Source of the DNA: Neocallimastix lanati (nom. inval.)
Taxonomy: Eukaryota > Neocallimastigomycota > Neocallimastigomycetes > Neocallimastigales > Neocallimastigaceae
NCBI GenBank assembly: GCA_016946835.1
Contig: JACVTC010000208.1
Coordinates: 112,501-176,500 of the forward strand
Length of the DNA stretch: 64,000 nucleotides
Direction: 5' to 3'
Shown here: in pieces, positions 30,701-57,916 of the stretch
Layout of the letters: each line of letters opens with the position of its first letter
Position numbering within the stretch: position 1 is the stretch's first letter
Position numbers and translations under genes: made by a program
Notes under the pieces: model-generated
The model's input: the letters and a program-made list of their open reading frames with translations, nothing else
The model's database searches: none
Told to the model about the DNA's origin: nothing

Positions 30701-30718
30701 TGTAACGAAATCTTCAGT
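30701..30718 (+). mobile_element. Start of another I-type LTR (target of G1/H/B)
   Basis: TGTAACGAAATCTTCAGT equals the first 18 bases of LTR I read on its own strand. The rest of this LTR is not in the window beyond the inserted stack. Its last four bases, CAGT, are the duplicated target of G1, H and B. Confidence 0.7.
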
Positions 30719-31916
30719 TGATACGGGCTGGGGTTGAAACACTAAGATATTCAAAACAAAAAAAAAAAATAAATATTAACACATAACTATAAAAATAAAT
30801 TTGGAAACAAGAAAAAAATTAAATTTTAAAATATTCTTTATTTAAATTTAAAATTAAAATTATTTGTTCCAAGTATTAAAAAGAAAGAAATTTATTCTTC
30901 TTTTTATACTTTTATTTTAATACATTTTATTTATTATTAATATATTCTTTATAAAAAAAACTATTATAACTATTTTATTTTAATTTTTAATTATTATTTT
31001 AAATTATTTTTTAAAAAAAAAAAAAAAAAAAGAATAACATTTATTAAATTAAAATATAAAAAATTAATTTAGAGATTGTATCACGAAGGGCATTCCGGGC
31101 GGTAGCTTCTTCTTGATATTGTTTTTCAGAGAGAGAATTATACAGAATTGATATTTTCTGTATTTTAGATCATTTTTTTATTATTGAAATTCTGTATTTT
31201 AGTTCATTTTTATTTTTAATAAAGATTTAATTTATTTTTGATTTTTGATTTATTTTTAGTTTATTTCAAAGGTTTAGAAAATATTATACAGAAACTTATA
31301 ATTCTGTATTTTATATCAAATATTTATTGAAATAGGTTTTTATTATTCTTAATATAAAAATAAGAATTAATAATGATTTAAATATTATATAATTTTTAAT
31401 AAGAATATTTAATAATAATTTTTATTATATTTAATATAAATAAAAGATTTTTATTAGAATATTTAATAATAATTTTTATTATATTTGATATTAATAAAAG
31501 ATTTTAATAAGAATATTTAATAATAATTTTTATTATATTTAATATTAATAAAAGAATTTTATAAGAATATTTAATAATAATTTTTATTATATTTGATATT
31601 AATAAAAGATTTTTATTAGAATATTTAATAATAATTTTTATTATATTTGATATTAATAAAAGAATTTTATAAGAATATTTAATAATAATTTTTATTATAT
31701 TTAATATTAATAAAGGAAATTTATAAGAATATTTAATAATAATTTTTATTATATTTAATATTAATAAAAGAAATTTATAAGAATATTTAATAATAATTTT
31801 TATTATATTTGATATTAATAAAAGATTTTAATAAGAATATTTAATAATAATTTTATTTTATTATTATTAAGAGTATTTAATAGGAAATACAAGGTATTTA
31901 GTGACACCCCGTATCA
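30719..31916. mobile_element. Solo LTR 'G1', 1198 bp
   Basis: The ends are inverted (TGATACGGG ... CCCGTATCA) and CAGT flanks both sides. It has no internal region. Its start resembles G2 (GGGGTTGA, ACTTAGATATTTAAAA-like). A minisatellite of about 55-60 bases fills 31,375-31,855. Confidence 0.85.
31375..31855. repeat. Minisatellite inside LTR G1
   Basis: About eight or nine copies of a unit of roughly 55-60 bases (core AGAATATTTAATAATAATTT, then TTATTATATTTGATATTAA) with small differences between copies. Confidence 0.8.
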
Positions 31917-31920
31917 CAGT

Positions 31921-32244
31921 TGTTAAGGTTTTAGAGAATTAAATAAAAATAAAGTAAAGAAACACAAATTTTATTTTTTTATTTATTATTTTTATTTATA
32001 AATTTATTTGATTTTATTCATTTATTTTATTAATTGGTTTGATGATTTTTAAAAATTGGTAGCAAAATTTACAACTATTTATACTTTTTTCAAGGCATAA
32101 AAGTTGTTCTTGCCACTAAATTACATTTTATTTATTTTTTTTTTTTTTTTTTATAAAAACTATTAAATTTAAATTGAATTTTATAATCAGTTATATAAAA
32201 TTTAATTATAACAATATAAATAAAATACATTTATAATATTAATA

Positions 32245-32285
<41 letters not shown>

Positions 32286-32761
32286 CTAAAATATTACTAA
32301 TAAGAATTTATTTAATTGGCTATAATTTTTATTACAATCTGTTAAAATATTCAAATAAAAATAAAAATACTATTCTAATATAAAGGTTTTTAATAAAATA
32401 AAATATTTTTCAATATAAAATAAAATATTTCGATATAAAATTTTATAATAAAAGTTAAAATATAATATATAAATTTTTAATCATCAATATATAAAAATAT
32501 TATTAATACAAAATTTCATTATTAATAAAAAAAAATAAGACTTATTATTAATATTGCTAATATAAGTTTTAAATATATAAAAATATTACTATTAATATAA
32601 GATTTAATATAAAAATATAAAGTTTAATATAATTTTTGATTTAATTTTTGATCTTTGGATTTAAAAATTTATTAAAGTACAAAAATAATAATGTACACAT
32701 AATGTATTAGAAATAAATCGTAGATTTAATTAAGAATGCATTATTTAGTACATTCTTATCA
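31921..32761. mobile_element. Solo LTR 'H', 841 bp
   Basis: It starts TGTTAAGGTT and ends TACATTCTTATCA, with CAGT on both sides (31917-31920, 32762-32765). It belongs to the TGTTAWGGTT...ATTCTTTAYCA group that also includes A/B, E and F. Confidence 0.85.
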
Positions 32762-32765
32762 CAGT

Positions 32766-34868
32766 TGTTATGGTTCAGGTTTTATTAGAATTTTTATTTA
32801 ATTATTTATTTTTAATATTTTTCTGTCTACATTTTAATTATTGAAAAACTTCACTTATTTATACTTTTTGAAAAAAAATAAATATGTAAAGCCTTTCTAC
32901 ATTTTATTATCATATTTAAAAAAAATATTTACTATTACTAATTACTTAAAATTTTATATTAATTTAAATTAACTAATTCATAAGTATTTTTATTTTAATA
33001 AATTTTGTTTATATAATTTTATATTATTTTTCATATACTAAAACTAAATTATTTAATATATACGAAAAGTAACAAACAAAATTTAAAAAGATTTTACAGA
33101 AAAATAAAGTTATTTTAATCAAGAATGTTAATATAATATTCTTATATTTTATATAAAATAAATTTAAAAACTATAATATATTTAATATTTATTATTAATC
33201 AATTAAGATTTGATTTTATTTGTGGGGAATAAAAATATAAAATAATCAATTTAAAAATAAAATAAAATACTAAAAAGAATACAAGTTTAATATTGATACA
33301 ATATAATAATAATATAATAATATATTTGAAAATAAAAATAAAATATTAATATTGATAATAAACACTTTAATAAAATAATAAAATTTAAGGTTAAATTATA
33401 GATATTGATATTAATAATAAAAATATAAAATTATTGATAATATTTTAGAAACTTTTAATAAAAATATAAAAAAAATAAATATATTTAGAAAATATTTTAG
33501 TATAGAAAATATAGTAAAGTAATATTAAGTAAAGAATAATATAATGGATTCTAAAGTAAGTTGAAATTCTAATTAATAATCCATTATATGTTCGTTCTTT
33601 ACCAAGATGCCCCCACTAAGACTCAAGCTAATCTATAGCTGAGTTATACTTTACTATATTTTTCAAATGAACATTACGATTCATTTGAATCATAGTATTT
33701 GGGTCCGCAAGTGTTACGGTATTAAATTGTTTTTTTATTACTTTTAAAGGACCGACAAAATAAGGTTCTAATTTAGAACGACTAAAATTTCGAACAAGAA
33801 CTAAATCACCGATTCTTATGTTTTTGGAATTTTTCATGCTATTTTTTTCTTCCCTTCGATTGGCCCAATATTTACTTGCGTTCTTTACATTTTCAGCTGC
33901 TTCCATGGTCCACCTATAATGTGAGATAAATTTTTCTAAAAGAATTTCATCTGAAGATTTATTCACTCCTTGTGTAGGTCTAGCAGCAATGTCGAAAGGC
34001 TGTTGATCCTCACGACCATAAACTAATTCGAAGCTAGAATGTTTGGTTACAGAATTCTTTGTAGTTCTAAGGGCCCACAAGGCTGAAGGTAATACCTCAT
34101 CCCAGTCTTTATTTTCTTCACCAAGTAATCTCAATAATTTACCAATTTCTTTATTCCTATTTTCAACCAATCCATTACTTTCTGGGTGATAGGTAGTGGT
34201 AAATTTTACGTAAACATCATATAAGTCCAGGAATATTTTAGTCATATCCGATGCGAATTGAACGCCATTATCCGTTGTAATGACTTGAGGAACTCCATGT
34301 CTAGCGAAAACATTTATTAAAAACTTAATAATGTCCTTAGATGTAATATTTTCAGTAGGTTCAGCCTCCACCCACTTTGTGAAATAATCCACCGCAATAA
34401 TGATATATTGGTTTTTATTACCAGTCTTTATTAAGGGACCAATAATATCAAGTCCAAGATGAGTAAAAGGGCCTTCAACTTCTGTTGGAATGTTTTCGGT
34501 TGGTTCTGGATATGGCTGAGGGCGATTTAACTGACATTTTTCGCATTTTGAAATTATCCGTTTTATATCGTTGACCATATCATTCCAGTAGTAACTTTTT
34601 CTAAGTCTTTGATATGTTTTATAATAACCTTCATGGCCAACATGATGTGCTTCGAGAATTAATTTTAGTTTTTCATTTGTTTCGGTAACAAGTTTTCTAT
34701 AATTATTTCCATCTATAAAATAATCTATACCATCAATCTTTGTAAATTTTTCTTCAATAAATTCTTTAATTACTTTAGAAAGTGAATCATTTTCATCATC
34801 TTTATTCGTTTTTATAGCTAATACCTTTTGTTCTTTATCGTTCTTCATTCTAGATAAAGCGTCGGCTA
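32766..34868 (-). mobile_element. Element B, Ty3/gypsy copy, truncated
   Basis: The 3' LTR (32766-33604, 839 bp, left side) is followed by a polypurine tract (TGGGGGCAT read on the minus strand) and the integrase end of pol. The copy then stops where the left LTR of D begins. LTR and coding part are almost identical to element A, with a handful of differences, so A and B are recent sisters. The 5' two thirds, gag and the other LTR are absent. It is broken by loss of that part. Confidence 0.85.
33628..34868 (-). pseudogene. Element B pol remnant (integrase part)
   Basis: This holds the integrase zinc-binding segment (H-x-H ... CEKCQLN), the DDE core blocks (LGLDIIGP, TTDNGVQF, YHPESNGLVENRNKE) and the C-terminal part ending NRNVHLKNIVKYNS. 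It matches the last 407 residues of the pol of A closely. It ends abruptly at the junction with D and has no RT or protease. Confidence 0.85.
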
Positions 34869-35799
34869 TGTAACGTGTAAGAAACTCTAATAAAAAGAAA
34901 TTTTTTATAAGAGTTTATTTTTTATATTGATTGAGTTTATTATTAAAAAAAAAATAAAGAAAAATACTTATATTTAAATAGACGAAAATTAGAAAAAGTA
35001 GAAGACTCGTATATAAAAATAAGTTTTTAAAACACAAAATTTTATTAAAAAAAATTTTAAACTTTAAATTTTAGGTTATTATTATTTTTAATATTTATCT
35101 TTATTAATATTTTTAATAATAATAACCCTTGATTTCTGAAAAAACAGAAATCAATCGTTATTTTATACTTTTTTATTTATTAATTAATCTTATTTTATAT
35201 TTATTTATTATTATTATTATTTTATCATGTGTCTGTTTAATTAATTAATTATTATTATTTTTTTTTTTCATGTGTTTATTTAATTAATAATTATTTAATA
35301 TAATATATTAATTATTTCTTAATTAAGCTATTGTTTGCTAGTCAGCTGTTGTATCTTCAGGAAAAGACTAGCAGAAAAACCTGAAGATTTTCTTAATCGT
35401 ATTAAATTAGAACGAATTATTTCAAAGAAATTTATTATTTAATTTAATTTAATTATTATTTAATATTATTGTGAAAATAATTTTAGAATATTAAATATTA
35501 ATTTTAATTTATTTATTATTTAATATTATTGTGGAAATTATTTAGAAGAATTTTAAATTTTAAACATAATTGTATTTGTGAAAATTCTATTATTATTTTT
35601 TAATATTTAATATTATTATACTTACGTATTTTAATTTTTTAATCAATAAAATTTATATTTAGATTAATTTGTAATTAACGAAATTTATATTTAGGTTAAT
35701 TTGTAATTAATAAAATTTATATTTAGACTAAGAAATATAGAAAATATTTCTATATTTCTTACATTGCTCCCTTTAGAAAAGATTTTTGTGAAAATCTCT

Positions 35800-38700
35800 T
35801 TAATTATTTATGTTATTATTAACTTCTATTAATTCCTTCTTTCTTTCCGTATAGGGTTCCAATTGGGAGATATGAAATATCGGGTGGAGATGCATGTTTT
35901 CTGGTAATTCCAACCGATAATTCATTCTTCCCCGTTCTTCTAAAATTCTAAAAGGGCCAAGATATTGATTTGACAGCTTTTTAGCAGGCTCATTTGTGAA
36001 ATAATAACGTTTGAGCCAGACTTTATCGTTAACCTTAAGAATTGGTCCAGAAGATTTTTTATTGTCTCCGAATCTTTTAAAATCTTCCTTAGCCTTAATT
36101 AAGTGTTTCTTTAATGAGTCAAAGTGGGCAGCCCAGTCACGAGTAAGAACGGAAGCATTATCTTTTAAGAGGATTGGAGGAGAATCAATGTTGCAGCATG
36201 GGTTGAATCCATAATTGGCGTAAAAGGGGGATTTGCCAATTGATTTATGTAAGGAATTATTGTATGCGATTTCACACAAGGGAAGATAAAAACACCAGTC
36301 TGTTTGGGCAGAGGAGCAATAACAACGTAGATATTGTTCGATCACTGAGTTTGCTCGTTCGATTTGTCCATTACTCTGCTGATGGTGAGCTGTCGCAAGG
36401 CTCGGTTTAACACCTAAGGAGTGGCATAAGGAAGTCCAGAATTCGGATGAAAACTGGGATCCATGATCCGAAACAATAACTTTTGGGAACCCGTGATAGC
36501 GAAAAACGTTAGCAAGAAGAAGTCTTGCAGTTAATTCAGCTGAAGGTACATCTGAACAAGGGATCAGATGAATCATCTTGGTAAGGTGATCCGAGACAAC
36601 CATGATACACGTACAATTTTGTGAATTGGGGAGAGAAACAATGAAATCCACACCGATGATTTCCCAAGGTTTGCTGGGAACTGGTAATGGTTGGATTTTC
36701 CCGTACGGCTTATGGCGGCGTATTTTGTTCTTCCCGCAAACTTCACAAGAGTATACATAATTTTGAACGTCATTACGCATATTTGGCCACCAATAATAGC
36801 GCTTTAATTTTTCAAGAGTCTTATTGACACCTTGGTGACCATTAACTGGTGTGTCGTGGAACGACCTTAAGATGTTAGGTTTTAATGGAAAAGGTACAAT
36901 GATCCTTTTCTGAAAGTGAAGGATTCCTTCAACTATGCTAAAAACAGAAGATTTTAATTGGGAGTCTTTATTTTTTAGTTTTGAGAAAATGTCTCTACAT
37001 TATTTGTCTTTTTTCTGAGCTTCTATCAATTTGTTAATATTTTCTATAGTAGTACAACAGAAATCTTCTTCTTTTAAAAGAGTTGTTTTGATAGATTTTT
37101 TACCATCTTGCAATTCCTTGTAGTCTGGTCTCCTGGAAAGTGCATCTGGTCTGCTGTTTTTTTCTCCAGATCTATATGATATTCTGTAATCAAATTTTGA
37201 GAGAAATAAACCCCATCTTATTTGTCTTTGGTTTAAGTGATGAGGTTTTTTGAAATAGAGTAAGTTTTTATGATCTGTTATAATTTGAACTGGTAGCTTT
37301 GAACCTTCCAAGTGATGTCTCCACACTTCTAATGCGGTTATGACAGCTAAAAGCTCTTTATCATATATAGTATAATTAGATTCAGTTAGGGTCATGGATC
37401 TAGAATAAAATGCTACTGGGTGAAGCTGATTATCTTCTTCACTTTTTTGAGACAAGATACATCCAACAGCGAAGTCACTTGCATCTGTTTCTACAATGAA
37501 TTCTTTATCTGGGTCAGGATGAATAAGGAGTTTGTTACTTTTGAAGGATTCTTTTAACCTAGTAAATGCTTCATCGGCTTTCTCATTCCATATGTACTGA
37601 TTATCCTTTTTTAATAATTTTCTGAGTGGCTCCATGATTTGAGCAAAGTCTTTTATAAACCTCCTATAGAAATTGCATAAGCCAAGAAAGCTTTGAAGTT
37701 CCTTGAGATTTTTTGGAACGGGCCACTCTAGAATAGATTTCAGCTTATCTTCATTCATAATAAGTCCTTTAGAAGAGATTCTGAAACCTAAGAAATTTGT
37801 TTCCTGGACATGGAAGTCGCACTTTTCTAATTTTGCGTATAATCCATTTTCTATTAGCCTACTCAATATGAGGGAAACATGACTTGTATGTTCTTTACTA
37901 CTTTTAGAATAAATAATAATATCATCCAAGTAGATTTGAACAAATCTTCCAATAACATCAGAGAATATATCCTGTACAAAGTGTTGGAAGACTGAAGGTG
38001 CATTTCTTAGCCCGAACGGCATTACTAAGTATTCGTAATGTCCTATGGGAGTCCTAAACGCCGTCAAATATTCATGTCCTTCTCGTATTCTTATTAAATT
38101 ATATGCTGATCTGAGATCCAGACGTGTAAAAATTACCGCACCCTGGAAGGATTCAATAAGATCATTTATCCTTGGTATAGGGTAACTATTTCTAATAGTA
38201 ATTGAATTCAACTTGCGATAGTCAACACAAAGTCTTAACGTCCCATCATGTTTTCTTACAAAGAGAACTGGAGCACCAGCGGGTGAATTCGACTTCCGAA
38301 TAAATCCCTTATTTAAATTTTCATTTATATATTCCTTTAAGGCTTTCATTTCTGTGATGGATAAAGAATATATTGGACCGTAGTATAGTTGACTTCCTGG
38401 GATTAAATCTATAGACATGTCATAATTTCTGTGGGGTGGCAATTTGTCGGCTTCTTTTTTCTCAAATGTTTTCTTTAAATTGAAGTAATATTTTTCAACG
38501 ATTTCTTTTTTTGTTTCAATGCTTTGTTCTTTAGTACGTTCAATAGGGATTTCTTGTAAAGCAGCACAAAGATCTACATCATTTTCTTCATTAAGAAGAT
38601 TATCGTAGACAATTGTATCGTCAGGGACCATAGAAGCAGTGAAATCTTTAGAATGGAAGATAAATTTATTCCCTTTTGCTGAATCACAATGTTTTGCACA

Positions 38701-39861
38701 GTACTTTTCTAAGAAGTAAATAGTATTTTTTTCAAAATTTATATAGGGCTTATGTTTGTTAAGCCAATCTCTTCCTAGAATTCCAGTAATTCCTTGGAGT
38801 TGTAAACTGGCAATATTAAATTCAAATGTTTCATGGTGATCCATAAAGCTGAGTTTAAGAGGTTTAGTCACATACTTAATATTCATAGATTTTCCATTTG
38901 GTAGTTGAATGTTAACAGGAGATGGTAGACCAGAATACGGAATCTTATTTATTTTAACGAAATTTTGACAAATGAAACTTCTGGAAGAGCCAGAATCTAT
39001 TAATAATTTAATTTTAATTTTATCATTGTTGACTACTAATAAAAAAGTGGAGGTCATCATATTTTTCTTGTTAGGAGTGAAATTTGCTGATAATAGATTA
39101 TCAATTTTACTTTTCTTATATTTCTGATAATTTTTATTTCTATATTCACTCCTTTTGGATTCGGAGAATTTCCTTTTGTGATAGGTATCCTTAGGACTTT
39201 TATCTTTAGACTTTAGGTTGGTTTCCAAATAACATTTCTTATCCAATGTGATAATCAAATTAGTAGCTTCAAATAAGTTAGAAGGCCGTTCGGCTTTATC
39301 AAATTCTTTTTGAACTTCTTCTAGGAGTCCTCTTCTTATTAAGTCAATGTAGACTCCATCATTCCATCCAATTCTTTTGGCAAGCCTTCTAAATTCTATA
39401 GTATAAAAGGCTGCCTTTCCAAGGGTCCTTTGTCTTAAATTTAATAGTTTTTCAATAAGAGAATACCTCTGTTCTTTGCTATCACCAAAATTGTTGATTA
39501 GTAATTCTTTAAATTTCTCATATCCAAGTGTTTGAAGAATCCCTTCTTCCTTAAGAGATAAACCCCATTTTTTTGAAGGACCTTGTAATTTGTGAATTAA
39601 AAAAGAACATTTACTTTCTTCAGCAGTAAAAGAATTTGGGTGGTCATGGAAAAAGAGCTCACATTGGCTAATAATTTCTATCATATTCAAGTTATTTTCA
39701 TTTTCTTTTTCTTGTGTTAGTATGCCATTGGGTGAGAAGAAGGTTGGAATATATTCCGTAATAGTTGAAATTAACTTTGATGTTTCATCCGGCTTATTTT
39801 TTGAAATGGAAATGTCATTATTTCCATTGTTTTCTGAAGTACCTGCAATATTAATATTCAT
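35800..39861 (-). pseudogene. Element C gag-pol coding region
   Basis: The order from the N-terminus is a gag-like region (FHDHPNSFTAEESKC, typical of Ty3-type capsid), protease with LIDSGSSRSF, RT with YLDDIIIYS, RNase H (VETDASDFAVG, YDKELLAVITALEVWRHHL), then integrase with HPIFHISQLEPY near its end. I see no CCHC knuckle in gag and no chromodomain after the integrase. The coding region is interrupted about once. A poly(A) run of about 39 lies about 60 bases before the gag start (39924-39962, T on the plus strand). Confidence 0.85.
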
Positions 39862-39921
39862 TATGAAATAAAAATAAAGTGAATGTATAGAGTATAATAT
39901 ATTTTTTATAAAAATTATAAT

Positions 39922-39964
<43 letters not shown>

Positions 39965-40010
39965 TTTATTTTTAACTATAATTATTATTATATATAAAAT
40001 TATTATATAT

Positions 40011-40027
40011 AAATCAAGAGTTATTAT
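40011..40027 (-). promoter_or_regulatory. Self-primer binding site of element C
   Basis: The 17 bases directly inside the 5' LTR are the exact reverse complement of 40271-40287 in that LTR. That site lies 31 bases downstream of a TATA-like GTATAAAATAA (minus strand, about 40,311-40,321) and so at the expected 5' end of the transcript. This is the Tf1-type self-priming layout. No TGG-type tRNA site is present. Confidence 0.75.
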
Positions 40028-40487
40028 TGTAAGAAACTCTAATAAAAAGAAATTTTTTATAAGAGTTTATTTTTTATATTGATTGAGTTTATTATTAAAA
40101 AAAAAATAAAGAAAAATACTTATATTTAAATAGACGAAAATTAGAAAAAGTAGAAGACTCGTATATAAAAATAAGTTTTTAAAACACAAAATTTTATTAA
40201 AAAAAATTTTAAACTTTAAATTTTAGGTTATTATTATTTTTAATATTTATCTTTATTAATATTTTTAATAATAATAACTCTTGATTTCTGAAAAAACAGA
40301 AATCAATCGTTATTTTATACTTTTTTATTTATTAATTAATCTTATTTTATATTTATTTATTATTATTATTATTTTATCATGTGTCTGTTTAATTAATTAA
40401 TTATTATTATTTTTTTTTTCATGTGTTTATTTAATTAATAATTATTTAATATAATATATTAATTATTTCTTAATTAAGCTATTGTTT

Positions 40488-40539
40488 GCTAGTCAGCTGT
40501 TGTATCTTCAGGAAAAGACTAGCAGAAAAACCTGAAGAT
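40488..40539. other. Interleaved inverted repeats (pseudoknot-type) in LTR of C
   Basis: GCTAGTC (40488-40494) pairs with GACTAGC (40517-40523), and ATCTTCAGG (40504-40512) pairs with CCTGAAGAT (40531-40539). The order A-B-A'-B' is that of an H-type pseudoknot on either strand. The same four blocks lie at 35337-35388 in the other LTR. Confidence 0.7.
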
Positions 40540-41029
40540 TTTCTTAATTGTATTAAATTAGAACGAATTATTTCAAAGAAATTTATTATTTAATTTAATT
40601 TAATTATTATTTAATATTATTGTGAAAATAATTTTAGAATATTAAATATTAATTTTAATTTATTTATTATTTAATATTATTGTGGAAATTATTTAGAAGA
40701 ATTTTAAATTTTAAACATAATTGTATTTGTGAAAATTCTATTATTATTTTTTAATATTTAATATTATTATACTTACGTATTTTAATTTTTTAATCAATAA
40801 AATTTATATTTAGATTAATTTGTAATTAACAAAATTTATATTTAGGTTAATTTGTAATTAATAAAATTTATATTTAGACTAAGAAATATAGAAAATATTT
40901 CTATATTTCTTACATAACGAATCTTAAAATGTTATGGTTCGAGGAATTCAAAAAAAAAAAATTATATAATATTAAAACACAAAAAAAAATTTTATTCTTT
41001 CACAATAATTTTTATTTATTTATTATATT

Positions 41030-41210
41030 TTTATTTTAATTTTTATTTTATTTTTATTATTATTTTTATTTATTTATTTTATTTTTATTTTATTTTTATT
41101 ATTATTTTTATTTATTTATTTTATTTTTATTTTATTTTTATTATTATTTTTATTTATTTATTTTATTTTTATTTTATTTTTATTATTATTTTTATTTATT
41201 TATTTTATTT
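41030..41210. repeat. Minisatellite in the LTR of E (also at 48914-49094)
   Basis: About four copies of a 42-base unit made of TTATTTATTTATTTTATT and TTTATTTTATTTTTATTATT blocks. It is present with the same copy number in both LTRs, so it predates this insertion. Confidence 0.8.
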
Positions 41211-42035
41211 TTTTTTTTTTTTTTTATTTATTTATTTTTATTATTTCTATTTTTTTTTCTTTTTTTTTTTTTTTTTCTCTCTCCTAAAAAGGGGTTCCAA
41301 GGTAGTCAATTTATATCTTTTTAAAGATATAAAAGTAGCAAAGCCTCTGGAAGTAGTTGAAGAGATGGAAAAACAATAGATTTTTAAATCTTATTGATTA
41401 TTTCCTTATTGTAATAAATAGAAATTTTATTATTTCCTAATATTCAAATTAACCAAAATAAATCTATAATATAAAAGATGCATTATAGATAAGAATTAAA
41501 CAAAAAAAAGAGAAGCAGTATTACAATAAAATTGAATACTTTAACTTAATTTTGATACTAATTTAATATGTAATCTTATATATTAATTTGAATGACATAA
41601 TAGAAAATAAAATACATTTATTAATATATGAAAAATCTTTTACAATTTTAAATACAGAAAATTTTATTTTATTTATTTCTTTCATTTCAATTATTTCTTA
41701 ATTCGAAAGACAGAAATATTGATAAAGTTATTTAAGTTGTTTATATACAGGAATTATTCCTTATTTAGAAAAATAATACTAAAAGTAATTAGTACTATGT
41801 TATTGCTAAACTCTCATAAATTTAATTTACCTTTATAAGGAATGAACATAAATTTAAATTAAATTTTATGTATAAACTTAAATTTTCAGATCAAATAATA
41901 TAGTAAAATTATTAATGTAAAGAATACATAAATTTATTAATATTTTAAAATTCACCTTGACTATATTAAAAGGTTTTTAATAAGAATCAATTTATTACTT
42001 CATTCTTTATCACGATGCCCCCGCTAAGACTCAAG

Positions 42036-45000
42036 CTATATTGTAGCTGAGTTATATTTTACTATATTTTTGAGGTGTACATTCCGATTTAATAATATTC
42101 CTGAATTTGGATCAGCTAACGTAACTGTATTAAACTTTTTCTTGATTACTTTTAAAGGTCCATTAAAATAAGGTTCTAGTTTAGTTCTACTAAAGTTTCT
42201 AACTAGGACTAAATCTCCCTCCTTGATTTCCTTAGCCTGATTCATACTTTGTTTTTCTTCTCGTCTAACAGCCCAATATTTATTTGCATTTTTCACATTT
42301 TCTGATGCTTCTATGGTCCATCTATAATGAGATATAAACTTTTCCAATAGAATTTCATCAGAAGATTTATTTATACCTTTAGTCGGTCTTGCAGCTATAT
42401 CAAAAGGTTGTTGGTCTTCACGACCATAAACTAATTCAAAACTAGAATGGTTAGTGGTACTATTTTTAACGGTTCTTAAAGCCCAGAGAGCAGAGGGTAA
42501 TACCTCATCCCAATCTTTATTTTTTGTCCCAAGCAATCTAAGGAGTTTACCAATTTCTTTATTACGATTTTCCGTAAGTCCATTAGATTCGGGATGATAT
42601 GTTGTAACAAATTTTATATATACATCATATAGATCTAAAAATATTTTAGTCATATCTGATGTAAATTGGGCACCATTATCGGTGGTAATTACTTGGGGAA
42701 CTCCATGACGAGAAAATACGTTAATAAGGAACTTAATTACGTCTTTAGAAGTGATATTTTCAGTCGGTTCTGCTTCTACCCACTTAGTGAAATAATCAAC
42801 AGCTACTATTATATATTGATTATTACTTCTAGTTTTAACCAGTGGACCGATAATGTCCAAACCAAGATGTACAAAAGGTCCTTCCACTTTAGTAGGTAGA
42901 TTTTCTGTAGGCTCTGGATAAGGTTGTGGTCGATTTAATTGACATTTTTCACACTTACTGACAACACGTTTAACATCATTCACCATGTCGTTCCAATAAT
43001 AACTCTTACGTAAACGTTGATAAGTCTTATAATAACCATCGTGTCCAATATTATGAGCCTCTAATATTAATTTTATTCTTTCATTAAGATCGGTTACTAA
43101 TTTTCTATAATTGTTACCATCAATAAAGTAGTCAATACCATCAATAGTGGTGAATTTTTCATTGATAAAATCATGTATTACTTTGGATAATAAGGCTTCA
43201 TTTTCATCATTCGTAATATCATGGTTAATTATTTTCGTAGCTAAAACTACATTTTCTTTATTATTTTTCATTCGGGATAGGGCATCAGCAAGCACATTCT
43301 TTTTACCGGTTTCATATCTAATGTCTACACCAAGCATACTAGCTGTCAAACACCATCTAGTTTGCCTTGCATTATGTGGTTCCTTATTTTTGAACAACCC
43401 TAGTAACGGTTTATGGTCCGTATATACAATAGTTGGTATTGGATTTCCATCTATATACGGTTTTAATTTAGTTATACAATAATATAGGGCAGCACCTTCT
43501 AGGTCAGTTATACCATAATGCTTTTCTGCTCTGGTCAAACTTCTACTAATAAAGTGAATAGGGTGTTCTTTTCCAGTTTCATTATCTTTTTGTAATAACA
43601 CACCTCCTATTCCATCATAAGAAGCATCGGTACGTATAATAAATTCTTTATCAAACTGAGGGAAACTTAATATGGGTGCATTTATTAGTTTTTCTTTCAG
43701 TACTTCAAACGATTTTTGGTGTTCACTAGTCCAAACATACTTCACACCTTTCCTTAATAATTTACACAAACACGCAGTAATTTGTGAATATTTATCGATG
43801 AAATTTCTATAGTATCCAACAGCTCCTAAAAATGAACGTAATTCATGGATGTCCTGAGGGGGTTTCCAATCTCTGATAACCTCGATTTTACTATCAAGAG
43901 GTTTTAAGCCTTTAGTGGTTAATCTATGCCCCAAAACATTCACTTCTGTTTTCATGAAGTGACACTTTTCAATATTAAGTTTTAATCTATTTTCTTTGAG
44001 TATGGATAAAACTTGTTGAATATGTTGGAGGTGTTCTTCAACTGTTTTAGAGTATATAAGTATATCATCGATAAAATTATAAACACACTTTCCTATTAAA
44101 GGAAATAGGATTCTATTCATTTCTCTTTGAAAGGTTGCAGGAGCGTTGGTTAGACCAAATGGCATAACTTTAAATTGGTAGTTACCAAACTTAGTGGTGA
44201 AAGTTGTTATACCAATACTTTCTTCCTCCATTAAAATTTGGTGATATCCAGAGTATAAGTCAATGGTAGTGAAGATAGTTGCACCATTGAGACTATCAAA
44301 AATTTCATCAATGTATGGTATAGAATAAGAATCCTTTATAGTAGAATCATTAACCTTCCTATAATCTACACACATACGCCATTTCCCATTAGGCTTTGGT
44401 ACTAGAACAATAGGCGAAGACCATTCAGAATTTGAAGGCTCAATTAACTTTTTATTAATTAACTTAGTTAATTCTTCCTTTAAAATATCTGTCTTTAATT
44501 TTGTTAGCCGATAAGCTCTTTGTTTTATAGGTTTGGTACCAGCTTTTAGATTTATTTTGTGTGGTGAAAGCAATGATGGTGTTAATTCCTCAGACGACGT
44601 AGCAACAATTTCTATATTGTCCTCTAATAGGTGTATTATATCAGTTCTATATTTTTCATTTAGAGTATTCATAAATATTGTATTATGTATATATTCCATA
44701 GGTGGTAATCCTTCTAATTTCTTTAATTCCCCACCAGCATATTTTTCCTTACTATTATCCTCAAGTAATTTGTTAACACTACAAATATATTTTTCGTCAA
44801 TTGCAGAATTATTTATTGGTGTAATAGAACTGATAGTACCATCCATGTTATATTTACATAAGCAATTATTTAAGGGATTAATAAATAATCTATTATCAAC
44901 TATAGTTTTTAAATTAATTAGCATGTCATAAAATGGTTCCTCTTTTTCTACAATTCGGAAATCAATTAACAATGAAAGCTCATTAATTTTCACAGGTATC

Positions 45001-46145
45001 CTAACGACTATTCCTTCAGAGTATTCATCGTCTCTAGTGGCAAGCATTATTCTACCACAACTATGACCAACAACGGTATATTGGTATGGTAGAGAATTAT
45101 AATATTTTTGTGACATAATATTTAAATTACTACACGTATCAATAAGTAATTTTCCAGATACACCATCAACAGAGGCATCTACCATTGCAATATCCTCCTC
45201 TGTTATTTCTGTACTTTTACTTTTATAGTTATGATCAACATTATTAACTAATGTTGTAGTAGCAACTACATTATTAATAGCGCCAACAACATTAGTGGTG
45301 GCTTTTACTAGTTTTAAACCTTGGGAAACTTGACTTCTTATTTTAGGCGCAGCATTCCAAAGCTGTCCAAAGGTAATATTACACTTGGTATTGCTTAAAT
45401 CATCCCATACATCATATTCCTTATAATTAGAAAGCATTTTAATAATTCGATTTACCCGAGGTATTTTCATACTATTATTATTATCATTATTATTATTATT
45501 ATTAATACCATCTGTATTAATTAATTTATTCAATATATTTTTATTATTCGTTACATGATTATTATCGATAATAGTTTCATTATTATTAATATTAATAGTA
45601 TTATTATTATTAATATCATTTACGACTGGGGTTTTTCTAATAGTTCCGTTGTTTCTATTATTAGGATTACTAGTATTATTATTATTATTTTTGTCTTTTT
45701 TTCTTTCTCTAGTTTGGTTAATTTCCCTTGGAGCTTCTACATTATCAACTTTTGAAGTTATTTCCTCTTTATTAGTAATTAAGTTTACATTAGACTGACT
45801 GGATGATGCAGTTTCGAATTCTTTAGAATTAGTACTAGATTTCAAAAATCTTTCTTTATCACGTATTGCTTTTTCAATTTTCTTTTCTTTATTGATATTT
45901 GGTTGCATAATTATTGATGTTTGCAACTGTTTCTTATGAGGTATCACCTCTTCAGTTTCCAATTCTCTTTCTTTTCTTTTTCTTAATGCAGGAGTGTTTA
46001 TAGGTCGTGGATTATCACGTAGGCTTTTATGAATTTTCCTTCCTTTTCCATTATCTAACTCAACATCACTTTCATCAAGTTTTCTTTTTGCCGCACCGAC
46101 AAAATATTCTCCTACCTGATCATGACTTTTGATAGTATAATCCAC
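42036..46145 (-). CDS. Element E pol, about 1370 aa
   Basis: An Asn-rich N-terminal linker (about residues 130-225) is followed by a retropepsin-like region (GKLLIDTCSNLNIM, near 335), RT (SEWSSPIVLVPKPNGKWRMC, LTNAPATFQ, FIDDILIYS near 690), RNase H (RTDASYDGIGG, DLEGAALYY) and integrase (H-x-H ... CEKCQLN, GLDIIGP, TTDNGAQF, YHPESNGLTENRNKE). There is no chromodomain; the protein ends in HLKNIVKYNSATI. The frame is open upstream of the first ATG and overlaps the end of gag in the -1 frame. It looks whole. The pol of A is the nearest relative in the window. Confidence 0.93.
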   Translation of the reverse strand: MDYTIKSHDQVGEYFVGAAKRKLDESDVELDNGKGRKIHKSLRDNPRPINTPALRKRKERELETEEVIPHKKQLQTSIIMQPNINKEKKIEKAIRDKERFLKSSTNSKEFETASSSQSNVNLITNKEEITSKVDNVEAPREINQTRERKKDKNNNNNTSNPNNRNNGTIRKTPVVNDINNNNTININNNETIIDNNHVTNNKNILNKLINTDGINNNNNNDNNNSMKIPRVNRIIKMLSNYKEYDVWDDLSNTKCNITFGQLWNAAPKIRSQVSQGLKLVKATTNVVGAINNVVATTTLVNNVDHNYKSKSTEITEEDIAMVDASVDGVSGKLLIDTCSNLNIMSQKYYNSLPYQYTVVGHSCGRIMLATRDDEYSEGIVVRIPVKINELSLLIDFRIVEKEEPFYDMLINLKTIVDNRLFINPLNNCLCKYNMDGTISSITPINNSAIDEKYICSVNKLLEDNSKEKYAGGELKKLEGLPPMEYIHNTIFMNTLNEKYRTDIIHLLEDNIEIVATSSEELTPSLLSPHKINLKAGTKPIKQRAYRLTKLKTDILKEELTKLINKKLIEPSNSEWSSPIVLVPKPNGKWRMCVDYRKVNDSTIKDSYSIPYIDEIFDSLNGATIFTTIDLYSGYHQILMEEESIGITTFTTKFGNYQFKVMPFGLTNAPATFQREMNRILFPLIGKCVYNFIDDILIYSKTVEEHLQHIQQVLSILKENRLKLNIEKCHFMKTEVNVLGHRLTTKGLKPLDSKIEVIRDWKPPQDIHELRSFLGAVGYYRNFIDKYSQITACLCKLLRKGVKYVWTSEHQKSFEVLKEKLINAPILSFPQFDKEFIIRTDASYDGIGGVLLQKDNETGKEHPIHFISRSLTRAEKHYGITDLEGAALYYCITKLKPYIDGNPIPTIVYTDHKPLLGLFKNKEPHNARQTRWCLTASMLGVDIRYETGKKNVLADALSRMKNNKENVVLATKIINHDITNDENEALLSKVIHDFINEKFTTIDGIDYFIDGNNYRKLVTDLNERIKLILEAHNIGHDGYYKTYQRLRKSYYWNDMVNDVKRVVSKCEKCQLNRPQPYPEPTENLPTKVEGPFVHLGLDIIGPLVKTRSNNQYIIVAVDYFTKWVEAEPTENITSKDVIKFLINVFSRHGVPQVITTDNGAQFTSDMTKIFLDLYDVYIKFVTTYHPESNGLTENRNKEIGKLLRLLGTKNKDWDEVLPSALWALRTVKNSTTNHSSFELVYGREDQQPFDIAARPTKGINKSSDEILLEKFISHYRWTIEASENVKNANKYWAVRREEKQSMNQAKEIKEGDLVLVRNFSRTKLEPYFNGPLKVIKKKFNTVTLADPNSGILLNRNVHLKNIVKYNSATI

Positions 46146-46231
46146 TCTGTAGTCTTTACTTTCTGCATCAGAAGAATTGGAAGTATATTTTAATGAAGCT
46201 ATTTTTTTGATGGGAGTGCTTCCTCTCCCTT

Positions 46232-47236
46232 CTACTGGTTTAAAGGTCCTTTGGAAAAAATCTGTTTCTTATTTTCTTCTATAATGGCTTGTAGTTTGGG
46301 ACAATGTTGTTGATAATGTCCAGGTTCCTTACAGAAGAAACAGGTTTTGACGGTAGAGTTTCTTGGTCCACGTGTAAGGTTCTCCCTTTCACTTTCATCA
46401 GAAACTTTCCTATTGTCCCTGTTTTCATAAGTATTTCTTGGTGGTGAACTACGACTCTTATTATAATTATTATTATTATTGTTGGAAACATTTCTATTAG
46501 GACTTGGTACACGATGTAACCTCACAGCAAGTCTATCCACTTTTTCTGCAATTTCATAAGCCTTTGAAAGTGGTATATCATCAATTAAAGTTACTCTTTT
46601 CCAGGCCTCAATATTATTCTCAAGTGCATCAGCATAGTCCAAGATACTGATTTGTTTTTTGTGAGTTTTATCTAATTTTAAATATAATGTCCGATATCTT
46701 TTATTAAAATCCCTTACTTTTTCATTTCTACCAATTTTAAGAGCACGCAATTCCCTTAATAAGGTATTCTGATCTTCCTTTGCCCCATAGAATACTTCAA
46801 GAGCGTTGACGATCTCGACAAAAGAAGGATAACGGTTAGTTCTAACACTATCATTACTAGAACTACTTGAACTAGTAGAGCTACTGGTGCTAGATCCTGA
46901 CATCTCACCAGTATCAGTGGAACCATTCAATTCTACATTTTCTTCTGCTGTAGTAGCAGGTAGTTCTAATTCTTGGATAATTTGTCTTGGTTCACCAGTA
47001 GACGTTAATAGGCAAGCAACAAAAATAGTTTTTGGATCAGTGATATTTTGTAATTGGATCCATAACTCAATTTCAGAAGCCCAAGATTTTATATCCAAAT
47101 GGTCCTTGTTTAATTTATCAACATATTTTAGTTCCTTTTTAAGATCTTTAAATGAAGGAACATTAGTAGTATCATTAGTAACTGAAGCCATATTTCTTGA
47201 GTAGAAATTATACAGTAATATAGGTAAAATATTCAA
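46232..47236 (-). CDS. Element E gag, 334 aa
   Basis: Capsid-like region (LNKDHLDIKSWASEIELWIQL, then VRDFNKRYRTLYLKL), a Ser-rich loop at about residues 112-128, and one CCHC zinc knuckle CFFCKEPGHYQQHC near the C-terminus for RNA binding. The start lies just inside a poly(A) leader of about 66 (T on the plus strand, 47253-47318). It ends a few bases after the heptamer T TTA AAC. Confidence 0.9.
   Translation of the reverse strand: MNILPILLYNFYSRNMASVTNDTTNVPSFKDLKKELKYVDKLNKDHLDIKSWASEIELWIQLQNITDPKTIFVACLLTSTGEPRQIIQELELPATTAEENVELNGSTDTGEMSGSSTSSSTSSSSSSNDSVRTNRYPSFVEIVNALEVFYGAKEDQNTLLRELRALKIGRNEKVRDFNKRYRTLYLKLDKTHKKQISILDYADALENNIEAWKRVTLIDDIPLSKAYEIAEKVDRLAVRLHRVPSPNRNVSNNNNNNYNKSRSSPPRNTYENRDNRKVSDESERENLTRGPRNSTVKTCFFCKEPGHYQQHCPKLQAIIEENKKQIFSKGPLNQ
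46238..46244 (-). promoter_or_regulatory. Probable -1 recoding site, gag to pol, in E
   Basis: The heptamer T TTA AAC in the gag frame lies next to the gag end. The -1 frame beyond it is the open pol frame. A GGGAG/CTCCC hairpin follows about 12 bases downstream. The same heptamer and hairpin stand at 63866-63872 in A. Ty3/gypsy elements commonly use recoding here (family knowledge). Confidence 0.7.
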
Positions 47237-47249
47237 AATAAAAATAATA

Positions 47250-47320
<71 letters not shown>

Positions 47321-47595
47321 TTGTGTGTGTGAGTATGTTATAGATATATATAATATAGTATTAGAATTTATAAGTTTACAAACACTTCAGAGATTAGAAA
47401 AAAAAATAGGTAAGTTTACAAACACTTCAGAGATAAAAAAAAAAATAAGTAAAATTTTTTTTTTTTTTTTTTTTTGTTTTTTTTTTTTTTTTTTTTTTTT
47501 TGTTTTTTTTTTTGTTTTGTTTTATTTTGATATCCAAGATTAAAATATTTTATAATTATTGTTTATTAAATTATATCTTTATAGTTATTTATATG

Positions 47596-47804
47596 AGGTT
47601 CGAAATACACTTCGACCACCTACAAGAAATATATTTTTAGGTTCGAATAACACTCGACCACCTAAGGAAATTTTATATTATTGGTTCGAATACCTTTCGA
47701 TCACCAATAGAAGATATAATTATATTAAGGTTATAAGCTCGAATGACACTTCGACCACTTATAATGATAATTATTTGGTTCAAGATACACCTCGACAACC
47801 AAAT
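47596..47804 (-). repeat. Five tandem hairpin modules in the leader of E
   Basis: The modules are 47596-47621, 47637-47665, 47680-47708, 47731-47764 and 47773-47804. Each has an outer stem that differs between modules but stays paired (AGGT/ACCT, TTAGGT/ACCTAA, ATTGGT/ACCAAT, TTATAAG/CTTATAA, ATTTGGTT/AACCAAAT). Inside is a nearly constant TCGAA-N5/6-TTCGA core, weaker in the fifth. Spacing is 41-51 bases. They lie between the primer site and gag and so are in the RNA leader. Confidence 0.85.
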
Positions 47805-47884
47805 CAAACAGGTAGTAAAAAAAATATAGTAGTCCTTCTTCTTTGGCTCAATTTCACTTAACCACAGAGTAAGAACAGTAAACA

Positions 47885-47921
<37 letters not shown>

Positions 47922-48788
47922 GAATTCAGTACACTAGAATTTCTTATATGTAGCACGGAATAAATTAATTGCTAAATTAAAAAAATTAATATGGAAAATT
48001 TATAAATATTTCTTATATATATATTATTAGCTTTATATTATTTTCGGATCCGCAGATTCTTTACAGGGCCGTTCGACCTCCACTATTGAACCGTCAGAAT
48101 AGTGAATATAACAGAGTAGTGTGTGCCTGTACGAACACGGGACCTTACCACTTTTTCTATTCTGTTATCACTTGTATCACTAAACCTTATTCAATAATGC
48201 TCTACTACCTCCCTATGTGTAAAGCAATCCTTCTCCTATTCTCTAATATAAACGTCTAATTTTTATATCTATATATATCAACAGTCTTGGTATCAATATA
48301 TAGATACTATATATATGTATATATTTATAAATTTGAATTTATAATTTCAATTATAATATAATTTAGTCGATAATATAAATACGAATTACTATATACACTT
48401 AATTGTAACAAAGCCTTAAGCTAAGGAGTTTTTCATCCAACAGCCGCCGATTACAATAAGTTATAAATTGTATAAAAGTATTCTTATATTAATGAATAAA
48501 TGTATAATATAATTAAATTATTATTCTTACTAATTAGTACTTGACAGGAATAAATATTTCAAAGTTTTATATCACACTGTTTCTCTTGCACAAACAGAAA
48601 TATAACAACTTTGTTGAATGAAATTATTTATCCAACTAATATAGTAAGGACGTAGGTGCTACTTTAAATTATTAATATTTATTTATGTATATATTATATT
48701 TCTATATTATTGTAAAAAAAATTTTTTTTTTTTATTTAATTAAATAAAATTATTGTGTATGTTTTAATATTAGTTTTTAATTTTGAAA

Positions 48789-48806
48789 TCCCCGATATCT
48801 CCACCA
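48789..48806 (-). promoter_or_regulatory. tRNA-type primer binding site of E
   Basis: On the minus strand, seven bases inside the 5' LTR, TGGTGGAGATATCGGGGA is complementary to a tRNA 3' end finishing in CCA. The acceptor stem implied (GGAGATA) would suit a tRNA-Ala-like primer, but I cannot confirm the tRNA. Confidence 0.6.
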
Positions 48807-49918
48807 AACTTTATGTTATGGTTCGAGGAATTCAAAAAAAAAAAATTATATAATATTAAAACACAAAAAAAAATTTTATTCTTTCACAATAATTTTTATT
48901 TATTTATTATATTTTTATTTTAATTTTTATTTTATTTTTATTATTATTTTTATTTATTTATTTTATTTTTATTTTATTTTTATTATTATTTTTATTTATT
49001 TATTTTATTTTTATTTTATTTTTATTATTATTTTTATTTATTTATTTTATTTTTATTTTATTTTTATTATTATTTTTATTTATTTATTTTATTTTTTTTT
49101 TTTTTTTTTATTTATTTATTTTTATTATTTCTATTTTTTTTTCTTTTTTTTTTTTTTTTTCTCTCTCCTAAAAAGGGGTTCCAAGGTAGTCAATTTATAT
49201 CTTTTTAAAGATATAAAAGTAGCAAAGCCTCTGGAAGTAGTTGAAGAGATGGAAAAACAATAGATTTTTAAATCTTATTGATTATTTCCTTATTGTAATA
49301 AATAGAAATTTTATTATTTCCTAATATTCAAATTAACCAAAATAAATCTATAATATAAAAGATGCATTATAGATAAGAATTAAACAAAAAAAAGAGAAGC
49401 AGTATTACAATAAAATTGAATACTTTAACTTAATTTTGATACTAATTTAATATGTAATCTTATATATTAATTTGAATGACATAATAGAAAATAAAATACA
49501 TTTATTAATATATGAAAAATCTTTTACAATTTTAAATACAGAAAATTTTATTTTATTTATTTCTTTCATTTCAATTATTTCTTAATTCGAAAGACAGAAA
49601 TATTGATAAAGTTATTTAAGTTGTTTATATACAGGAATTATTCCTTATTTAGAAAAATAATACTAAAAGTAATTAGTACTATGTTATTGCTAAACTCTCA
49701 TAAATTTAATTTACCTTTATAAGGAATGAACATAAATTTAAATTAAATTTTATGTATAAACTTAAATTTTCAGATCAAATAATATAGTAAAATTATTAAT
49801 GTAAAGAATACATAAATTTATTAATATTTTAAAATTCACCTTGACTATATTAAAAGGTTTTTAATAAGAATCAATTTATTACTTCATTCTTTATCAAAAA
49901 AATTAGAAATTAGAATGC

Positions 49919-49971
49919 TGGCATAGTGGTTAGTCACTATGACCTCAGCCTGAACCACTAGGGTTCGACTC
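49919..49971 (+). promoter_or_regulatory. tRNA-like A and B boxes in left LTR of D
   Basis: A-box TGGCATAGTGG (49919-49929) is a perfect fit to TRGYNNARNNG. B-box GGTTCGACTC is at 49962-49971. TAGTGGTTAG to GGGTTCGA is 37 bases, the spacing I recall for tRNA-Glu genes, which also read TAGTGGTTAG and GGGTTCGACTC. A TAGTG/CACTA hairpin corresponds to CAATG/CATTG in LTR I. A T4 run about 20 bases on could end a transcript. Confidence 0.8.
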
Positions 49972-50247
49972 ACACCTTTACTAAAATTTTATATCATTTA
50001 AATTTTAAAGAATTTTTATACTTCATTTCTGTATTTGCTTCTGTATTTGTTTCTGTATAAATTTCTGAAAAAATTAACAAAAGAAATTCTTAGAAATTAA
50101 TAGAAACAAATCAGATAGAAATTCTATTTTAATTTATCTTTTATCATTATTTCCTTTAGATTCTTTTTAACCGAAAATAATCAATTTTTATGAAACTATT
50201 TAATGATTTTATGGTTTTAAATTTTTATGGATTTAAATTTTGAAAAA

Positions 50248-50306
50248 CTATAAATAGGAGTGAATTTCGCAGCCAAAAAAAAATATTCTAAAAATTGTGT
50301 TTTTAT
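50248..50306 (+). promoter_or_regulatory. TATA element and candidate self-primer in left LTR of D
   Basis: CTATAAATAG at 50248-50257 is a good TATA box. GTGTTTTTAT at 50297-50306 is the exact reverse complement of the 10 bases directly inside the LTR (50489-50498, ATAAAAACAC). Confidence 0.5.
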
Positions 50307-50488
50307 TAATTATTGAATTAATTAATAAGTAATTCGAAATATTACAATAATTAATCTTTATAATTAATATTTTTAAATTTCTTAATTAATAAAACTATAT
50401 TTTAAAAAACCAAATTACTTATTAATCAAAAAGTGCTTACCTATTGTGTTACACTCTTTAAAACACGGATATTCCAATATTCGTTACA

Positions 50489-55660
<5,172 letters not shown>

Positions 55661-55761: not shown

Positions 55762-55983
55762 TATTTTATATTATTCAAAAACATTTATTCTAGATAGTTT
55801 TATTTTTATACTTTATTTTTAAAACTTAAAATTCATGTAATTTTTATTATTCAATGTATTAATTAAATTATCACTCCTATAAGTATTTTAGTTATAGTTT
55901 ATTATTATAAAAGTTAGAATTAGAAATAGTTTAGATTTAAAGCAAAAGATTCGTCTGGCATCCGAATCCTAGAGGAGGACCAT

Positions 55984-57911: not shown

Positions 57912-57916
57912 TAAAG

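Follow-up and report, generated by a model that had tools for sequence, protein, structure and literature searches.

Why do elements of several retroelement families in this 64,000-nucleotide stretch of DNA (the window, read at its full length) begin within the first 18 bases of the long terminal repeats (LTRs) of other retroelements? The features that raise this question, with target-site duplications abbreviated as TSD, are as follows.

29486-30129, minus strand: solo I-type LTR (TSD TTAAT, read by eye), with the A-box and B-box layout of D
30701-30718, plus strand: bases 1-18 of a second I-type LTR, with CAGT at the end
30719-31916, minus strand: H-type LTR, TGATACGG...CCGTATCA (ends as read in the window, TGATACGGGC...CCCCGTATCA)
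31917-31920: CAGT, second copy of the 4-bp target
31921-32761, minus strand: B-like solo LTR (ends as read in the window, TGTTAAGG...TTATCA)
32762-32765: CAGT, third copy
32766-34868, minus strand: B element, interrupted by the start of D
34869-34875, plus strand: bases 1-7 of the D 5' LTR, identical to 55983-55989
34876-40914, minus strand: Ty3/gypsy element C (LTRs identical at 884/887 aligned bases, TSD TAACG)
40915-40929, plus strand: the 5-bp repeat TAACG at the 3' side of C (its TSD copy), then D-LTR bases 8-17
40930-49896, minus strand: Ty3/gypsy element E (LTRs identical at 1083/1083 bases, TSD AAAA)
49897-50488, plus strand: remainder of the D 5' LTR (tRNA-like +1 near 49912, A-box 49919, B-box 49962)
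51461-55660, plus strand: D gag-pol open reading frame (ORF), 1399 aa, with reverse transcriptase, RNase H, integrase and a C-terminal Chromo domain
55983-56592, plus strand: D 3' LTR (A-box at base 36, B-box at base 79, TTTT at base 104, TATAAATA at base 367)

The junction coordinates and TSDs bear out the original prediction that the left LTR of D is broken by C behind base 7 and by E behind base 17. Following E, the D LTR resumes at base 14 (position 49897), and the duplicated AAAA corresponds to bases 14-17. A G1/H/B stack had also been placed after base 18 of an I-type LTR, and this was confirmed by a match that comprises the LTR head (bases 1-18); we take the three LTR units at 30719-34868 to be that stack. 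They used one CAGT target again and again, and the remainder of the I-type LTR is not joined to the stack within the window because D cuts B at 34868. Judging from LTR divergence, D is the oldest insertion, C is younger, and E is the newest and lies nearest to the promoter. As had been argued, three matches within 18 of 610 LTR bases are unlikely to arise by chance (p of about 2.6e-5, computed post hoc).

In both D and I, the A-box lies at LTR base 36 and the B-box at base 79, which places the tRNA-like +1 at base 29, where it had been expected; the distance to this start in the window is 15 nt for E and 26 nt for C with the TSD counted. ARAGORN found no tRNA over the 64,000-nt window and Rfam found none in the D or I LTR, leaving the A- and B-boxes and local hairpins, so that the tRNA-like parts would be promoters at best rather than tRNA genes. 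The two boxes align in seven divergent tRNA-like sequences. A two-hairpin structure derived from one of the seven scores above shuffles (covariation 3/500), and the number of pairs with changes on both sides was equalled by 50/500 shuffles.

The elements differ in their coding content. C, E and B show the Ty3/gypsy order of reverse transcriptase, RNase H and integrase, within one ORF each in E and B and split in C over two ORFs (reverse transcriptase-RNase H, then integrase), and Pfam found no chromodomain in the three. Their LTRs and integrase rule out a non-LTR element of the TRE5 type. D is a chromovirus by its C-terminal chromodomain (PF00385, E 9.2e-18, residues 1349-1397, after the integrase), and I is likewise a chromodomain family.

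We examined the insertion sites of these families in DNA searches in which the best 40 matches per family were scored, a sample in which young copies are over-represented. By a tally done by hand, 18/48 insertions in the C, E and B sample lie next to a tRNA gene, to a tRNA-like sequence or to a D/I-like LTR head (unique insertions: C, 6/21; E, 8/17; B, 4/10), whereas no such direct site was found for the control families (D, 0/20; I, 0/9; together 0/29; Fisher p = 4e-5). Two E copies read at internal flanks only (C179 and C157) were left out, five more E matches lie outside the sample, and insertions C665b and C743 were counted apart from C666 and C389 because their TSDs differ. Among the 30 other insertions, 25 abut another LTR terminus by script and 4 by eye, and 1 has no class call; thus 29/48 adjoin other LTRs only, as read from immediate flanks. 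Flanks were compared with the D and I LTRs by BLAST at E 1e-9, since lower stringency gave a mass of AT-rich matches. The recurrence test counted TG-starting termini only and gave 42 C/E/B flanks, two of which are I-LTR heads, and 0 D flanks; TA-starting matches, to which some D flanks corresponded, were left out of this count.

Ten of the 18 direct sites lie in D/I-like LTRs and three at real tRNA genes called by ARAGORN. Outside the window, D/I-like LTRs contain eight insertions of the C, E and B sample; in six of these, the LTR is left with a head of 10, 11, 17, 17, 17 or 18 bases, and the remaining two (L010 and C666) start at LTR base 14-15, the position at which other families cut two independent D LTRs. 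Several insertions at recurrent positions in independent loci carry TSDs. There are two exceptions: the second flank of the E copy at C666 is I-LTR base 90, apparently a rearranged junction, and one D copy lies within a D LTR near base 450. An even spread along LTRs or a lack of preference for tRNA genes would have contradicted the targeting hypothesis, and neither occurred in this sample.

The same position is occupied at real tRNA genes. An LTR end lies 14-17 nt upstream of 11/18 single tRNA genes, where 0.17 were expected, although the LTR-end library was kept by recurrence with tRNA-site loci included and is therefore not fully independent. None of the 18 has an LTR end 21-200 nt upstream, and 7/18 have no library LTR end. 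In 4/8 Cys-Gly tRNA pairs, an LTR end lies 95-102 nt before Gly, which by our reckoning is about 14 nt before Cys. At L163 and L164, an LTR-like terminus was seen 51-52 nt downstream of tRNA-Gly. Among 38 SINE-type sites, an element end at a spacing like that of the single tRNA genes was found at L150 and L187 by script and at L182 and L140 by eye, while most SINE copies have no LTR end and L146 has one at 35 nt; these counts were made partly by eye because the first SINE classifier gave 0 full copies and the head pattern missed L182.

All families and unnamed LTRs together give 31 tallied cases with a distance of 13-17 nt to the +1, a list limited to cases already within 10-20 nt (C60, L169, L171 and L182 by eye; window C at 26 nt, L036 at 22 nt and the ambiguous C58 excluded). 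The wider cases, outside this main peak, belong to C, at 26 nt in the window and probably about 22 nt in L036; for the E copy at C58, the A-box itself is ambiguous. Where the +1 is at LTR base 29, elements insert after base 17-18 (C445, C665b, C246 and window E); where it is at base 20 (by eye), insertion follows base 10, at 13 nt (C15); and where it is at base 9 (by eye), the elements end 7-9 nt outside the LTR (L129 and L137, at 17 and 15 nt). As the insertions move with the tRNA-like start, the A-box rather than the LTR start acts as the ruler.

For the H family, one side per LTR was located (10/20 flanks), and each of these ten lies beside an LTR terminus, at 3-6 nt (eight by a looser script rule of one recurrence, two by eye); no tRNA or A/B-box was found beside H among the ten. 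The H copy in the window lies directly after base 18 of the I-LTR head, and in L172 tRNA-Ser has an H-like end at a distance of 16 nt.

Our results strongly support a Ty3-like targeting of Pol III promoters, with elements placed 13-17 nt upstream of tRNA genes, tRNA-like LTRs and some tRNA-derived SINEs. We conclude, with a probability of roughly 0.87, that several Ty3/gypsy families (C, E, B and, judging by its neighbours, putatively H) form a guild that integrates at Pol III promoters. D and I, which carry chromodomains, are without this targeting. By analogy with Ty3, the integrase would be tethered via TFIIIB, in which case a Pol III initiation complex must form, or must once have formed, around base 14-20 of the D and I LTRs. 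Insertion some 15 bases before tRNA genes and tRNA-like LTR parts stacks the elements on top of each other. An insertion would leave the promoter and its flanking bases intact, so that the next element could enter the same few bases between the earlier element and the promoter, and repeated entry would build towers with the newest member beside the promoter.

The original prediction further proposed that these LTRs serve as decoys. This idea is supported only in part: more of the 18 direct sites are in D/I-like LTRs (ten) than at ARAGORN tRNAs (three), but such a distribution is no evidence of selection. If D and I LTRs had evolved or kept their tRNA-like promoter as a sacrificial landing pad, an insertion before base 18 of the 5' LTR would spare the TATA box and the coding region and drain insertions from host genes. 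The aligned boxes and the two-hairpin score are in keeping with this, as are C and E in the window, which strike the 5' LTR of D, and five of six LTR heads read, which precede DNA other than a polypurine tract. However, such conservation is equally expected from a role in transcription or from a SINE relic, the structure comes from one of only seven sequences and its two-sided changes were matched by 50/500 shuffles, the C copy of L036 sits in a 3' LTR (polypurine-tract-like sequence adjoins it), and solo LTRs could account for the remaining heads; we consider selection as a landing pad improbable. Similarly doubtful is a specific form in which the D LTR is a dual promoter, where a Pol III unit of type 2 (A-box 36, B-box 79, TTTT 104) precedes a Pol II TATA box (367). 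In this form the Pol III unit would bind TFIIIB in vivo, the insertion peak of rival elements would be its footprint, and selection would maintain the unit as a pad that steers other elements into the 5' LTR of D itself, where they do no harm.

Integrases might instead favour the sequence or structure of LTR termini themselves, the tRNA-like part being incidental. Most sampled insertions adjoin another LTR terminus, H was found only beside such termini at its ten located flanks, and C, E and the H stack of the window all lie within the first 18 LTR bases. This is nevertheless very unlikely, as equal spacing is found at real tRNA genes and some tRNA-derived SINEs without an LTR of their own, and the sites follow the A-box, whether this puts them past base 17-18, past base 10 or outside the LTR altogether. 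That insertions are drawn to AT-rich DNA or to open chromatin, with no part played by a Pol III factor, is just as hard to credit: the window is AT-rich and tRNA genes are commonly nucleosome-free, but the matches beside tRNAs lie 14-17 nt upstream and none at 21-200 nt, and D and I go elsewhere within the same genome. Chance or an assembly artefact can be practically dismissed, for although the three window matches were chosen post hoc, insertions at independent loci fall on the same positions again, several of them with TSDs, and 11 tRNAs have an LTR end in the bin against 0.17 expected.

Pol III targeting as we propose it has known relatives. Ty3 of Saccharomyces cerevisiae integrates 1-4 bp from the Pol III start (PMC5911963), 2-3 bp according to a structure paper (PMC8632968), or, measured from the mature tRNA, at about 15 bp (PMC5006619); its integration is tethered by TFIIIB (PMC8632968), and its integrase has its own chromodomain serving as a ruler (PMC8632968, PMC5911963). 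C, E and B resemble Ty3 as Ty3/gypsy elements at a short, fixed distance upstream of Pol III genes. They differ in that a genome of 199 Mb has several LTR families with this habit, that the TFIIIB tether is assumed by analogy, that LTRs of other retroelements and SINEs are targets, and that Pfam detects no chromodomain in them. The Dictyostelium TRE elements, which had been offered as a parallel, fit less well than DGLT-A, as a review table gives distances of 40-54 bp for TRE5 and 13-33 bp for DGLT-A (PMC5911963). DGLT-A, about 15 bp upstream of tRNA genes, is also a Ty3/gypsy element without a chromodomain beside related chromoviruses with other habits; in contrast to the present case it is known from compact genomes, and the accessible text makes no mention of LTR targets (PMC5006619).

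In having a tRNA-like sequence with both boxes in its LTR, D recalls Helenus/TRIMp3, but it cannot be placed in this group, whose members are short, non-autonomous TRIMs without pol (PMC10886601), since it has a 1399-aa gag-pol-chromodomain ORF. The discussion of that paper considers a long LTR stretch in common with an autonomous partner unlikely, and its accessible parts do not mention other elements inserting into Helenus LTRs (PMC10886601). A short element in L008, with two LTRs about 966 bases apart (by eye), is a candidate of the Helenus/TRIMp3 kind. Cassandra also has a Pol III promoter within its LTR, although this is of the 5S type, in plants, and non-autonomous (as given in PMC10886601). 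The use of other retroelements' LTRs as targets is new relative to Ty3-like Pol III targeting; the literature searched on anaerobic-fungus retrotransposons, chytrid Ty3/tRNA and tRNA-like LTRs, mostly outside subscription journals, gave no report of it.

Pol III targeting has been discussed as a safe way of life in compact genomes (PMC5006619). Here, several families target Pol III sites in the large, repeat-rich genome of an early-branching fungus, apparently an anaerobic gut fungus, and mobile elements themselves make up many of the targets observed. The insertions provide a natural map of possible sites of Pol III initiation complexes, retroelement LTRs included, and the towers built at the same site could yield a readable order of insertion.

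The chromodomain Ty3/gypsy element D is a chromovirus, and the tRNA-like start (+1) placed near LTR base 29 by the original prediction was adopted for D and for the related family I, with the A-box at base 36. The features concerned are as follows.

D, single ORF of 1399 aa: gag, RT, RNase H, integrase and chromodomain.
D LTR: A-box at base 36, B-box at base 79, TTTT at base 104, TATAAATA at base 367.
I-type LTR: A/B layout as in D, TATAAATA at base 396.
34876-40914: element C, after D-LTR base 7, target-site duplication (TSD) TAACG.
40930-49896: element E, after D-LTR base 17, TSD AAAA.
30701-30718: I-type LTR head; next come, in order, the H-type LTR, the B-like LTR and B, each border marked by CAGT.

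Coordinates and TSDs bear out the predicted insertion of C after base 7 and of E after base 17, and the predicted G1/H/B stack behind the I-type LTR head is confirmed at its CAGT borders. No chromodomain was detected by Pfam in C, E or B. Because the LTR pairs are identical at 1083/1083 positions in E, 884/887 in C and 579/586 in D (common part), D is the oldest insertion and E, which adjoins the tRNA-like part, the newest. A second LTR tower (57900-58900) reads LTR ending TTTACCA, TAAAG, LTR 57917-58886, AAAG, B LTR. The H-type LTR contains 54-bp tandem repeats (31286-31933), and H LTR length seems to vary among copies. The outer flanks of D (34860-34868, 56593-56600) have by eye no common TSD, though D sits within B; perhaps two D copies recombined. 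An I internal stretch from outside the window (L189) has by eye an ORF with D-like gag, integrase end and chromodomain, in which RT and RNase H are largely missing; this element probably depends on others. The A/B-box segments of seven tRNA-like sequences align nearly gap-free. A two-hairpin structure, derived from one of these seven sequences and tested on them, beat shuffles (covariation equalled in 3/500, pairs changed on both sides in 50/500), which is only suggestive.

The host assembly comprises 199 Mb, and the window is very AT-rich. At least 150 matches to PF02013, all over cut-off, were listed in this genome, and 0/14 control genomes were positive; this domain is the fungal dockerin found in the anaerobic gut fungi, Neocallimastigomycota. 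Published work gives 187-201 Mb and a GC content of ~18% for Neocallimastix assemblies (PMC8561657, PMC12341934).

Flanks were read for 30 of 40 scored LTR matches of C, for 20 of the 25 other E insertions among its 40 matches plus the window copy, and for 10 B insertions chosen from matches, full-length pairs first. Once LTR pairs and duplicated loci had been merged, an informative flank was available for 21 C, 17 E and 10 B insertions, many of them read at a single end. Direct sites, which adjoin a tRNA gene or tRNA-like sequence or else the head of a D/I-like LTR, numbered 18 among these 48 (six for C, eight for E and four for B). Three of them were ARAGORN tRNAs (Cys, Met, Ser), 10 lay in D/I-like LTRs, and the rest were tRNA-like sequences whose wider flanking context was left unread. 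Another 25 insertions abut an LTR terminus recurring in the data set by script and four more by eye (L014, L017, L023, L037), leaving one B insertion (at C24). Controls read in the same way gave 0/20 unique D insertions and 0/9 I insertions, one I copy having an LTR terminus at 21 nt (Fisher p 4e-5 for direct sites, 2e-16 for direct plus script-supported stacked sites). H, included as a check, had an LTR terminus at 3-6 nt in 10/10 located flanks (8 by a looser script rule, 2 by eye) and therefore supports stacking; the located side of these flanks held no tRNA or A/B-box, and for direct Pol III targeting by H the evidence is the window stack plus a single H-like end, found 16 nt from a tRNA-Ser at L172. 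In contrast to the C/E/B sites, one D copy (G000:C423:279450-285514) lies within another D LTR near base 450.

The distance from LTR start to +1 differs by LTR type. Where +1 is base 29 (D, I), those C/E/B copies whose head could be read follow base 17 or 18 (C445, C665b, C246, window E). For the LTR at C15 we count +1 at base 20, and E follows base 10, 13 nt away. LTR3, the LTR type of a short element present at L008, has its A-box at base 16 and +1 at base 9; in 2/6 LTR3 copies another element ends outside the LTR, at 7 nt in one and 9 nt in the other, which puts these ends 15 and 17 nt from +1. Sites thus shift along the LTR with +1, so it is the tRNA-like part, not the LTR start, that acts as the ruler. 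The comparison with tRNA genes and tRNA-like LTRs proposed in the original prediction, run on this sample, placed insertions 13-17 nt upstream of +1 (mean 14.9) in 31 tallied cases, a list restricted to cases first found within 10-20 nt. Window C, at 26 nt, stands outside the list with a C at L036 (about 22 nt) and an E at C58 (A-box ambiguous). An exception to a perfect rule is the E copy at C666, whose second flank falls at I-LTR base 90; this flank begins with the initial bases of the internal region of E and so looks rearranged.

From the tRNA side, 75 B-box sites were read: the first 8, the next 57 from a list of 100, and 10 picked from the remainder for a B-box form resembling true tRNAs or LTR3. 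ARAGORN found 18 single tRNA genes (12 consecutive, 6 picked), and 11 of them carried an already known LTR end at 14-17 nt upstream (7/12 consecutive, 4/6 picked) against 0.17 expected by background (8 matches/9600 positions), the LTR ends coming from C/E/B flanks and being retained by recurrence across all loci, tRNA sites included. No LTR end lay 21-200 nt upstream of any of the 18. By eye, L167, L181 and L131 (missed by ARAGORN) also fit this spacing, and L184, L190 and L197 do not. In four of eight Cys-Gly tandems an LTR end lay 95-102 nt before Gly, by our reckoning about 14 nt upstream of Cys. At L163 and L164 an LTR-like terminus (TGTTAAGGTTCG) stands 51-52 nt downstream of tRNA-Gly, against the upstream pattern. 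An abundant tRNA-derived SINE starting GCCATGTTGGTCC accounted for 38/75 B-box sites (e.g., L001, L003, L004, L135); an LTR end lay 14-15 nt before its start at L150 and L187 (script) and L182 and L140 (by eye), a weak one at 35 nt at L146, and most of the 38 had none.

Towers could arise if promoter distance sets the insertion site: each insertion would leave the promoter-proximal repeat and flank as before, and the next element would therefore enter the same bases. Such a model predicts neighbors separated by the TSD alone and the newest element beside the promoter. TG-starting matches stood at 3-5 nt in 31/42 C/E/B flanks, CAGT was used three times in the window stack, and the far side of tRNA-adjacent copies was often another LTR; age order was examined in the window alone. 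In Ty3, contact between TFIIIB and integrase directs insertion to a position a few bp upstream of where Pol III initiates (PMC8632968) and roughly 15 bp away from the mature tRNA (PMC5006619). Because the spacing matches that of Ty3, TFIIIB tethering of integrase is the most likely mechanism here. The predicted Ty3-like Pol III targeting is upheld by the spacing, the tRNA genes and the D and I controls, its TFIIIB component being inferred from the spacing match.

The behavior of C, E and B is that of Ty3, DGLT-A and Tj1 (PMC5911963). Helenus TRIMs are short, nonautonomous elements with tRNA-like sequences in their LTRs; their autonomous partners, it is argued, necessarily depend on a Pol II promoter and probably do not have a long LTR stretch in common with them (PMC10886601). 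D differs from what is described there, since its A/B-boxes lie in the LTR of an element that encodes gag-pol and has a TATA box as well. The short element at L008 (about 1197-2532) has its two LTRs some 966 bases apart, with a tRNA-like start to the LTR; it may represent a Helenus-like TRIM from an anaerobic fungus. In the literature on retrotransposons of Neocallimastigomycota and anaerobic fungi and on tRNA-like LTRs, we found no earlier report of LTRs as targets, of a site common to several families or of this host group, and as far as that search reaches, all three are new. Should TFIIIB tethering hold, D and I would carry LTRs that load TFIIIB.
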